Shown one piece after another: positions 10,602 through 14,072 of a stretch of DNA of 64,000 nucleotides. The translations under genes and the position numbers were made by a program. Position 1 is the stretch's first letter. Every line of letters begins with the position of its first letter. The DNA is from Sulfurovum sp. (GTDB lineage Bacteria; Campylobacterota; Campylobacteria; Campylobacterales; Sulfurovaceae), in NCBI RefSeq assembly GCF_015493435.1, contig NZ_WGDD01000054.1:62001-126000 (forward strand), written 5' to 3'. The notes under the pieces are model-generated. The model did not search any database, was not told the origin of the DNA, and worked only from the letters and a program-made list of their open reading frames with translations.

Positions 10602-11363
10602 ATGTTGAGCAGGGGATACACGACGGAACTCTTAACGGGGAAGGACAGCAGTAAACGTAAAAGCCGGATACCGGCAAGGATTGATTTCCTTCAAAGTGTC
10701 TCAGGCCTGGTACTGGCACTTTTTATTATGTTCCATTTAGTGTTTGAATCCTCTATCCTTCTGGGGAAGGATGCTATGTATATGCTTACAAAAGTTTTTG
10801 AAGGAGAACCGTTCATCCAAGGCGGAGAACCCTTGATCATTTCGGTACTGGCATTCATTATTTTTGCATTTTTCGTGCTTCATGCAGGGGTTGCTATGCG
10901 AAAATTCCCCTCTTCCTATAAAGAGTATCGGCGATACACAGAACATAAGGCACTTTTGAACCACAATGATACCAATTTATGGTATGTGCAGATCATGACA
11001 GGGTTCATTATGTTCTTTCTGGGTTCCATTCATCTTTATATCATGATGACACAGCCTGAAAATATCGGTCCGTACGCTTCTTCTGACAGGGTTTACAGTG
11101 ATCTTATGTGGCCGATGTATCTGGTCTTGCTGATCTCTGTTGTGCTGCATGCGGGAATAGGTCTGTATCGTCTGATCATCAAATGGGGTGTATTTGACGG
11201 TAAAGACCCTAAAGCCAACAGGCAAAGGAGCAGGAGAATCGCAAAAGTATTGGTGACAGCCTATCTTCTTCTCGGGCTTGCTTCCCTGGGGGCCTATATG
11301 CGGATTGGATATGAGCATCGGGGTGAGTATGGGCAAAGATATGTACCAGGGAGCGGAAAATGA
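10602..11363 (+). CDS. frdC: Fumarate reductase diheme cytochrome b subunit FrdC
   Basis: Membrane anchor that passes electrons between menaquinol and FrdAB. Five hydrophobic segments are visible. The four heme-b histidines of the Wolinella enzyme (H44, H93, H143, H182) map with a constant +1 offset to H45, H94, H144 and H183. The quinol-site glutamate E66 maps to E67. The E-pathway glutamate E180, however, maps to V181 in the segment [14 protein letters not shown]. The TAAGGA upstream supports ATG 10602. The gene overlaps frdA by 4 bp. Order C-A-B is the Wolinella order. Direction in vivo (fumarate reduction, reductive TCA, or succinate oxidation) cannot be read from sequence. Confidence 0.93.
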
Positions 11364-13345
11364 AGATCATATATACAGATGCGCTTGTCGTCGGCGGCGG
11401 TCTGGCAGGTTTGCGTTCTGCCATTGCGGCAAGGGACAAGGGACTTGATACCATCGTACTGAGTATGGTTCCTGTCAAACGCTCGCATTCGGCAGCTGCA
11501 CAGGGCGGTATGCAGGCAAGTTTGGCGAACAGTGTCAAGGGAGAGGGAGACAATGAAGATATCCACTTTGCTGATACGGTCAAAGGAAGTGACTGGGGAT
11601 GCGACCAGAAAGTAGCGCGTATGTTCGTGACCACCGCACCCAAAGCGATCCGTGAACTGGCAGCATGGGGCGTGCCCTGGAGCCGTATCGGGAAGGGTGA
11701 GAGGACAGTGGTCATTAACGGAAAGCATGAAACCTTCAACGAACGTGATGAAGCCTATGGACTCATCAATGCCAGGGATTTTGGCGGGACAAAGAAGTGG
11801 CGTACCTGTTATACCTCCGATGCAACAGGACATACGATGCTTTATGCTGTAGCCAACGAAGCATTGAAACGTGATGTTGATATTCATGATAAAAAAGAAG
11901 CGATCTCCATTATTCACGACAATGGTGTATGTCACGGTGTGATAGTGCGTGACCTTATTAACGGAGAGCTGATCGCTTATGTGGCGCGCGGGACAATGAT
12001 CGCTACAGGCGGATACGGGCGCATTTACAAACAGTCGACGAATGCCATTATCTGTAAAGGAATCGGTACTGCCATTGTACTTGAGACGGGCATTGCAGAA
12101 CTGGGCAATATGGAGGCAGTACAGTTCCATCCGACGCCGATCGTACCGTCGGGTATACTGCTGACAGAAGGATGCCGAGGGGATGGAGGCGTGCTTCGTG
12201 ACAAAGACGGGTACCGTTTTATGCCGGATTATGAGCCTGAAAAGAAAGAGCTTGCTTCCAGAGATGTAGTAAGCCGCCGTATGATCGAGCATATCCGTAA
12301 AGGCAAAGGGGTCAAGTCTCCGTACGGGGACCACCTGTGGCTTGATATTTCCATTCTTGGGCGTGAGCACATTGAGAAGAACCTGCGTGACGTACAGGAT
12401 ATTGCCATCAGTTTCAATGGTATTGATCCGGCTGATGAAGGACCAAAGGGGTGGATGCCTGTATTGCCGATGCAGCACTACTCCATGGGCGGTATACGTG
12501 TTAAACCTACCGGAGAGAGTACCACGATGAAAGGCCTTTTTTCTGCGGGAGAAGCGGCATGTTGGGACTTGCACGGATTTAACCGCCTGGGAGGGAACTC
12601 TGTCAGCGAAGCAGTCGTATCCGGTATGATCGTAGGTGAATACTTTGCCCAATATTGTCATGAGACACATTTGAATACCAATACTTCGGTGATCGAAGGA
12701 CATCTTGAAGCCCAGATTAACTATCTGAAGGAAATCCTCAGTTATGACGGAGGGCTCAATATTTTTGATATCAAAGATGAAATGAGAAGCATTATGCAGG
12801 AGAAAGTAGGGATCTTCCGAAACGGTGATGATCTTCTCGAAGCAGTACATAGACTTGAGGCCTTGCTGAAAAAGACGAAAGAGATCACGGTCGAGTCCAA
12901 AAGTCTGGGAAACAACCCGGGACTCAATGAAGCCTACCGTGTACCCAAAATGCTCAAACTGGCACTGTGTGCGGCAAAAGGCGCATTGCAGCGCACTGAA
13001 AGCAGGGGTGCGCATTACCGGGAAGATTATCCCAAACGGGATGACATGCATTGGCTGAAACGTACGATTACGACATGGGAAAATCCGGAAGATACGCTGC
13101 CCTCTATCCATTATGAAGAGATCGATATTATGGAAATGGAAATGCCCCCGGCTTTCAGAGGATACGGAAGAAAGGATTCACTGATCGAGAATCCGATGAG
13201 CGCACAGCGGGAAGCCGAGATAGAAGAGATCAGGAAAACGTTGGGTACGGTCGACCGTTTTACGATTCAGGAAGCGCTGCTTGACTACGAGCTTCCCGGA
13301 AAGCTTAAACATAAAAATGAAAGAGTAGGAGTAGGGTATGCCTGA
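11360..13345 (+). CDS. frdA: Fumarate reductase flavoprotein subunit FrdA
   Basis: The catalytic subunit with covalent FAD, interconverting fumarate and succinate on the cytoplasmic side. It shows the Rossmann motif [12 protein letters not shown], the FAD-linking histidine in [10 protein letters not shown] (H43), HPTPIVPSG, a GCRGDGGVL block and the active-site arginine R301 (ASRDVV); both numbers coincide with the Wolinella enzyme. Other blocks are [10 protein letters not shown] and [12 protein letters not shown]. At 661 residues it is full length. It overlaps frdC by 4 bp and frdB by 8 bp, so the three are translationally coupled. Confidence 0.96.
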
Positions 13346-14072
13346 GAATGAAAATTACAGAGAGATAGAGATCACCGTTTTCCGTTACAATCCTCAGGAC
13401 AAGGATTCCACACCGGAATACCAGACCTATACCCTGACCGAAACACCCGGAATGACACTCTATATTGCCCTGATCCAGATATGGTCAAAGATGGACCACG
13501 ATCTTAGTTTCGATTTTGTCTGCCGTGCAGGTATCTGCGGCAGCTGTTCTATGGTGGTCAACGGAAAACCGAGACTGGCCTGTAAAACACGTACGAACGA
13601 ATTCGAAGATGGAAAGATCACACTGCTGCCTCTGCCGGCATTCAAACATATAAAAGATCTTTCTGTCGATACAGGAAACTGGATGAATGCAATGAGTAAA
13701 AAGCTTGAAAGCTGGATACACACACAGGAAGAGACGGACCTTTCACGCATCGAAAAACCGGTAGATCCTGAAGTGGCAGATGAAGTTTTTGAACTCGACC
13801 GCTGCATCGAGTGCGGGATCTGCCTTGCGAGCTGTTCGACGAAGATCATGCGCGATGATTTTGTCGGTGCAGTCGGCCTCAATAGAACCGCACGTTTTTC
13901 CATCGATCCTCATGACCAGAGAACAGATGAGGATTTTTACGAGCTTATCGGTGATGAGAACGGTGTATTTGGCTGTATGAGCCTTATGGGGTGTGAAGAC
14001 CACTGCCCGAAGAACCTGCCTTTGCAGACCAAGATCGCCTACATGAGACGCAAAATGGTCAAGGTGAAATAG
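13338..14072 (+). CDS. frdB: Fumarate reductase iron-sulfur subunit FrdB
   Basis: Carries the electron relay between heme b and FAD. Cysteines for the [2Fe-2S] cluster are in CRAGICGSC plus the later LACKT; those for the [4Fe-4S] and [3Fe-4S] clusters are in [11 protein letters not shown] and [14 protein letters not shown]. It is 244 residues, normal for the family. The start ATG 13338 overlaps the end of frdA. It is the last gene of the unit, followed by a GC-rich hairpin. Confidence 0.95.

Follow-up and report, generated by a model that had tools for sequence, protein, structure and literature searches.

Linked residue changes in the FrdC membrane anchor of a Wolinella-family quinol:fumarate reductase from Sulfurovum

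Does a fumarate reductase whose anchor lacks the glutamate of the transmembrane proton path simply do without it, or has the anchor been altered around the missing residue? Wolinella variants at Glu180 of the anchor subunit FrdC are not known to grow on fumarate, and the case for or against charge compensation of transmembrane electron transfer in dihaem complex II rests largely on this one residue in one organism. According to PMC10739449 and PMC7447783, the Wolinella enzyme binds its distal haem through His44 and His143 and its proximal haem through His93 and His182, oxidises quinol near Glu66 on the periplasmic side, and turns over electroneutrally because protons return via the E-pathway with Glu180. 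The stretch of 64,000 nucleotides from the sulfur-oxidising Sulfurovum sp. that was analysed here (the window) encodes an FrdC in which an earlier note, made by eye from the sequence, had read Val in place of that glutamate.

The frdCAB operon and its anchor

The enzyme encoded in the window is a Wolinella-family quinol:fumarate reductase with linked changes in its FrdC anchor. The genes form a compact operon on the forward strand in the order frdC (10602 to 11363; dihaem cytochrome b membrane anchor, 253 aa), frdA (11360 to 13345; flavoprotein subunit, 661 aa) and frdB (13338 to 14072; iron-sulfur subunit, 244 aa), and each product exceeds the curated cut-off of its Campylobacterota fumarate reductase model: FrdC with 333.3 bits against the NCBIfam equivalog NF010072 (cut-off 187), FrdA with 1156.9 bits against NF006383 (663) and FrdB with 420.9 bits against NF010071 (264). 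FrdC, present in one copy in this genome, reaches 37.6 bits against TIGR02046, the Bacillus/b558 succinate:menaquinone reductase family, the cut-off of which is 96. Its AlphaFold2 model (mean pLDDT 93.9; 73-row alignment) has a five-helix membrane fold, and a fold search of the PDB returned Wolinella FrdC first (TM-score 0.86-0.89, 46-48% identity); the top match by sequence and by fold was 2bs4, the Glu180-to-Ile variant, though this preference is slight. Score, the four haem histidines on four helices, the Glu66 counterpart, operon and fold all place the protein with the Wolinella-type dihaem enzymes (NF010072; type-B complex II), and subunits and gene order are those of Wolinella FrdCAB (2bs2 and 1qlb; E180Q variant 2bs3, E180I variant 2bs4).

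FrdC residues 10-239 align with residues 9-238 of W. succinogenes FrdC (phmmer against the PDB, best E 2.7e-77), and as this alignment is ungapped from the match start through helix V, the offset of one that had been assumed by eye is valid at every site named earlier. The four haem histidines and the quinol-site glutamate are kept as claimed: H45 (codon 10734 to 10736, forward strand, as are all the following) and H144 (11031 to 11033) stand for the distal-haem ligands H44 and H143, H94 (10881 to 10883) and H183 (11148 to 11150) for the proximal-haem ligands H93 and H182, and E67 (10800 to 10802) for E66. Wild-type Wolinella E180 of helix V aligns with V181 (GTG, 11142 to 11144). Misalignment at this position was ruled out, the region being ungapped at about 46-50% identity and the fold search agreeing; so was the presence of a substitute acid elsewhere in helix V, as residues 170-195 of the window FrdC contain no Asp or Glu. 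The stretch marked in the earlier note, 11100 to 11170, takes in V181 only. Helix I carries a new glutamate, E49 (GAA, 10746 to 10748), four residues past H45 and at the place of Wolinella V48, and the multiple alignment puts A214 (11241 to 11243) where E-type enzymes have Lys (Wolinella K213, helix VI), the window's own Lys standing in a different register at 215. The combination E49/V181/A214 represents what is termed here the swap type, as distinct from the E type with Glu181.

Among better-known enzymes, Bacillus subtilis SdhC has Ile at the Glu180 place, and the dihaem succinate:menaquinone reductases (Mycobacterium smegmatis Sdh2 and the Bacillus type) belong to another sequence family (TIGR02046) than the window FrdC. 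With V181 the window FrdC departs from the E-pathway fumarate reductases, which have Glu at 180 of helix V, and agrees with the electrogenic dihaem succinate:menaquinone reductases in having no acid there. M. smegmatis Sdh2 likewise has no acid at this place (PMC7447783), and the Prevotella bryantii enzyme has the unprotonatable Trp170, although the text covered of PMC10739449 reports no reciprocal acid and the sequence is distant. The Desulfovibrio gigas enzyme (5xmj), as portrayed in PMC6175931, resembles the window protein in its dihaem type-B anchor and in Glu60, the Glu66 counterpart, but has Glu164 at the Glu180 place and an extra Glu193. The missing Glu180 has been remarked on for Prevotella and Mycobacterium; in the open-licence PMC literature nothing was found on FrdC residues or a reciprocal acid in Sulfurovum or Sulfurimonas, and the Sulfurovum indicum transcriptome paper (PMC10045233) leaves fumarate, frd and succinate unmentioned. 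The linked rearrangement of this known enzyme is apparently undescribed, the evidence for novelty being weak because the literature scope was open-licence PMC.

Acids at positions 49 and 181 across Campylobacterota

FrdC was found in 301 of 397 genomes of the phylum, in 15 of 30 of the window's family, and in 39 of 44 and 36 of 121 genomes of two further families surveyed. The rows compared grew from 90 loci to 172 rows (80 loci of named records among them) and then to 244 rows, 195 of them distinct; the sample is not random, since best-scoring matches and chosen genera dominate it, and several named records apparently duplicate other genomes. All 172 rows have the four haem-ligating histidines and 170 have the Glu66 counterpart. 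Two loci (L128, 8001-8777; L152, 8001-8735) have Ser for E67 and Arg at 214 while keeping Glu181.

The alignment of the phylum at residue 180 that had been proposed revealed Val181 as a clade-wide state accompanied by a reciprocal Glu49. Glu is absent at 181 in 52 of the 172 rows, the window's nearest relatives included, which rules out a loss specific to this organism; these rows are Sulfurovum-like, Sulfurimonas- and Sulfuricurvum-like, or belong to L024 (a locus of genus g33) and L081b. When the row sets were compared column by column, site 49 was as sharp as 181: all Glu181 rows have Val or Ile there, and nearly all rows without Glu181 have Glu or Asp. It can be seen from the 195 distinct rows that 140 combine Val/Ile49 with Glu181 (V/E 138, I/E 2) and 50 combine Glu/Asp49 with Val/Ile181 (E/V 41, E/I 8, D/V 1), the remainder being four with Thr49 (T/V 2, T/I 1, T/T 1) and one truncated (V/gap). 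Acids at both sites, or hydrophobic residues at both, occur in none of the 195, and a carboxylate stands at one or the other in 190 of 194 complete rows. The Thr49 rows, with no acid at either site, are three of the swap clade (g2) and L081b. Conservation is strict within each type, and 60 columns are type-associated with a frequency distance over 0.5. Glu181 also occurs in seven of the 172 rows from records labelled Pseudomonadota, Myxococcota or Latescibacterota, which suggests that it is the older state; L115, labelled Gammaproteobacteria but perhaps on a misbinned contig, has Ile at 181. L081b itself (L081, 640-1395, reverse strand) is a divergent second FrdC-like protein with Thr49 and Thr181, encoded downstream of frdCAB in a Wolinella-like genome (G167), and at L055 and L204 (G182) and L234 (G446) the frdC frames have stop codons inside the initial match.

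Site 214 is Lys in 138 and Arg in 2 E-type rows, Met, Ile, Val, Gln, Ala, Leu or Thr in the swap clade, Gln in L024 and Arg in L081b. While the ungapped multiple alignment pairs window A214 with Wolinella K213, the pairwise phmmer alignment leaves A214 against a gap and sets K215 opposite K213, and Lys215 occurs in 32 of the 52 rows without Glu181, the window among them; a shift of the lysine is consequently as likely as its loss. L024, with Gln214, has no Lys at 215 in its own sequence. Site 214 is therefore a weaker marker than 181, and its lysine may have been displaced or lost. As to the consequence of losing Glu180, the absence of the E-pathway glutamate stands, but the earlier account missed the reciprocal Glu49 and the coupled change at 214, with which a coordinated, clade-wide rearrangement is indicated rather than a bare loss.

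Descent of the two anchor types

The FrdC tree (172 rows, columns 49 and 181 masked) has three changes at each of these sites and unites the Sulfurovum and Sulfurimonas swap rows in one clade on a starred branch (99), whereas the tree of FrdA genes directly downstream of frdC (230 rows) has ten changes of FrdC type, both types interleaving among Sulfurovum-like FrdA and likewise among Sulfurimonas-like FrdA. Either frdC was replaced several times within the operon on one FrdAB core, or the change recurred, in which case the FrdC tree would have been drawn together by parallel sites. An earlier FrdC tree of 90 rows had the Sulfurimonas-like swap rows among E-type rows; monophyly of the swap type was not rejected by a topology test, and removal of the 60 type-associated columns, a biased removal, split the swap clade without significant rejection (p 0.125). 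On the FrdA tree, starred branches yield eight independent pairs with unlike residues at 181, and every one of them shows the matching difference at 214 and a matching difference of polarity at 49 (p 0.0078 by sign test; with an acid at 49 as the criterion, 7 of 8, p 0.016). If frdC moved as a unit, however, these pairs show repeated choice of type and not repeated evolution of residues.

L024, of an unrelated lineage, has repeated the set independently. It is D49/V181/Q214, and the 11 sister rows compared are all V/E/K; they represent about 8 genomes, L121, L138 and L148 looking like second copies. E-type rows show at least 98% conservation at 44 sites. From this consensus the swap clade departs at 42, 49, 181 and 214 and L024 at 49, 181, 214 and 224, so that three of four departing sites coincide (P=0.0012; at the 95% threshold P 0.0099); with the overlap at 214 set aside, two shared sites remain (P about 0.02, by hand arithmetic). 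Grouping of L024 with the swap rows was rejected in the AU test (p=0.008). Two anchor types on related FrdAB cores, a lasting counterpart of E180I in many lineages, and L024 among its E-type sisters constitute a matched natural set in which the E-pathway idea becomes directly testable.

Charge balance and direction in the cell

The reading we prefer, tentatively and at somewhat below an even chance, is that the E-pathway has been dismantled and that the enzyme is probably electrogenic, acting in the cell chiefly as a succinate dehydrogenase driven by membrane voltage. The cytoplasm-directed proton path would have been taken apart and a carboxylate set on the periplasmic side of the distal haem, such that protons would be exchanged with the quinone to and from the periplasm only. 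From the helix ends of the AlphaFold2 model, by helix-length arithmetic, 49 falls nearer the periplasm than the distal haem does, 181 falls between the two haems, and removal of a mid-membrane acid together with addition of an outer-side acid fits such periplasmic retention of quinone protons. As two charges would then be moved against the usual proton-motive force, fumarate reduction with menaquinone would run uphill and succinate oxidation downhill. The potential of fumarate/succinate is about +30 mV. With menaquinone (-67 to -74 mV; PMC6175931) the main role in the cell would be that of a voltage-driven succinate:menaquinone reductase, and with 8-methylmenaquinol (-124 mV; PMC6682613) the enzyme would work near equilibrium in either direction. 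The swap-type enzyme may thus couple to membrane voltage differently from the Wolinella enzyme. The natural set of anchor types would also help to predict which way flux between succinate and fumarate runs in the autotrophs abundant at vents and in sediments.

Under this proposal the reduction of fumarate needed for carbon fixation would fall to a cytoplasmic SdhABE. Counted by PF02910 as an addition to FrdA and to the shorter aspartate-oxidase-like proteins, a second complex-II flavoprotein (about 570-621 aa, a partial frame in two fragmented genomes) occurs in 37 of 39 swap-type genomes (the two without it have a completeness of 72-74%), in 18 of 30 E-type genomes checked, and in each of the 15 genomes of the window's family that lack FrdC. 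Its neighbours, read in the window's own genome (G000) and in G331, make up SdhA, SdhB and an SdhE with two CCG domains; the best match of SdhE, below cut-off, is the 8-methylmenaquinol:fumarate reductase anchor, and no twin-arginine leader was seen in the cluster of either genome. The different proton route and the succinate-oxidising enzyme that had been predicted are both possible, but a role mainly in the reductive TCA cycle is less likely, because the 15 FrdC-less genomes keep the second flavoprotein and because a cytoplasmic two-subunit enzyme was proposed for the cycle (Sievert et al. 2008, as reported in PMC4674564). ATP-citrate lyase is present in the window's genome, and strong matches to it (PF16114) were obtained in 33 of the 39 genomes of the swap type and in 20 of 57 with the E type. 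A strict tie to it failed, as G419, G429 and G487, at 92% completeness or better, gave no strong match; the idea of the swap type as a marker of SdhABE absent from E-type sisters (G331 against G061) failed too, most E-type g33 genomes having such a flavoprotein. The window FrdA has Gln near the flavin His, as does Wolinella FrdA. With Gln in both, the Gln/Glu distinction that separates succinate dehydrogenases from fumarate reductases elsewhere (PMC10308238) does not discriminate here.

The electrogenic reading is favoured by the exclusive pattern at 49 and 181, the independent repeat in L024, the eight FrdA-tree pairs that change together, the excess of second flavoproteins in swap-type genomes, the presence of both FrdC types side by side in G423 and G427, and the likeness to M. 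smegmatis Sdh2, which belongs to a class regarded as powered by the proton potential (PMC7447783). In the literature we found no activity, potential, structure or other measurement for any swap-type enzyme, and nothing on Val in enzymes with a proven E-pathway. The chief doubts are that one or other of the two sites almost always retains an acid, as a working relocated path would also give, and that the P. bryantii enzyme without Glu180 is described as building no proton gradient (PMC10739449, PMC8516057). Also against it are the ATP-citrate lyase gene, with which net fumarate reduction is expected somewhere, the commonness of SdhABE-type flavoproteins in E-type genomes, the Thr49 rows with acid at neither site, and the Lys215 of many swap rows, with which the lysine may have shifted rather than gone.

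The main rival, possible though less probable, is a relocated E-pathway in which Glu49 replaces Glu180 beside the distal-haem propionate and turnover stays electroneutral by a somewhat different route. Reciprocal acids are the expected trace of such a compensated exchange, L024 keeps an acid in Asp49, and Lys215 could stand in for Lys214; on the other side, 49 is five and 181 eleven residues from the periplasmic ends of helices I and V, a depth difference of roughly 9 A if the ends are level in the model, so that the two probably do not occupy the same spot, and three swap-clade rows with Thr49 have no acid at all. It is improbable that the distal-haem sites only set a midpoint potential or pick another quinone with charge balance unchanged: 49 lies a single turn away from a distal-haem ligand and many more positions differ by type, but tuning alone leaves unexplained why loss of the E-pathway glutamate coincides exactly with gain of the new acid. 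Functionless inheritance of one old substitution set is very improbable, for although most swap rows are one FrdC clade, and row counts therefore overstate independence, L024 changed separately, the FrdA tree has its ten type changes and each type is strictly conserved.

Going beyond the electrogenic reading, FrdC might be an exchangeable coupling cassette whose toggle at 48/180 (with 213) switches FrdAB between electroneutral and electrogenic operation, flipped repeatedly in Campylobacterota (up to ten times on the FrdA tree), both versions sometimes being kept for opposite directions; we regard this as a doubtful but tenable extension. G423 shares its layout with the named record BB26, in which two frdCAB operons stand tail to tail, and a third case of both types is the MAG CSMAG_270 (L100, L127), where mixing is possible. 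One Sulfurimonadaceae locus (L165, 7953-14868; L241, 5940-12807) has such a pair of frdCAB operons, one swap and one E type, the E-type frdC being cut by the contig end. At L237 (3989-6100) a swap-type FrdC without FrdAB is followed, 3 bases on, by a 455-aa FAD/NAD disulfide oxidoreductase, the best matches of which are CoA-disulfide reductase models, far below cut-off. In several Sulfurimonadaceae-like genomes (G419:C12, G447:C161, G426:C11 and G360:C1) the second flavoprotein gene lies a few kilobases from frdCAB.
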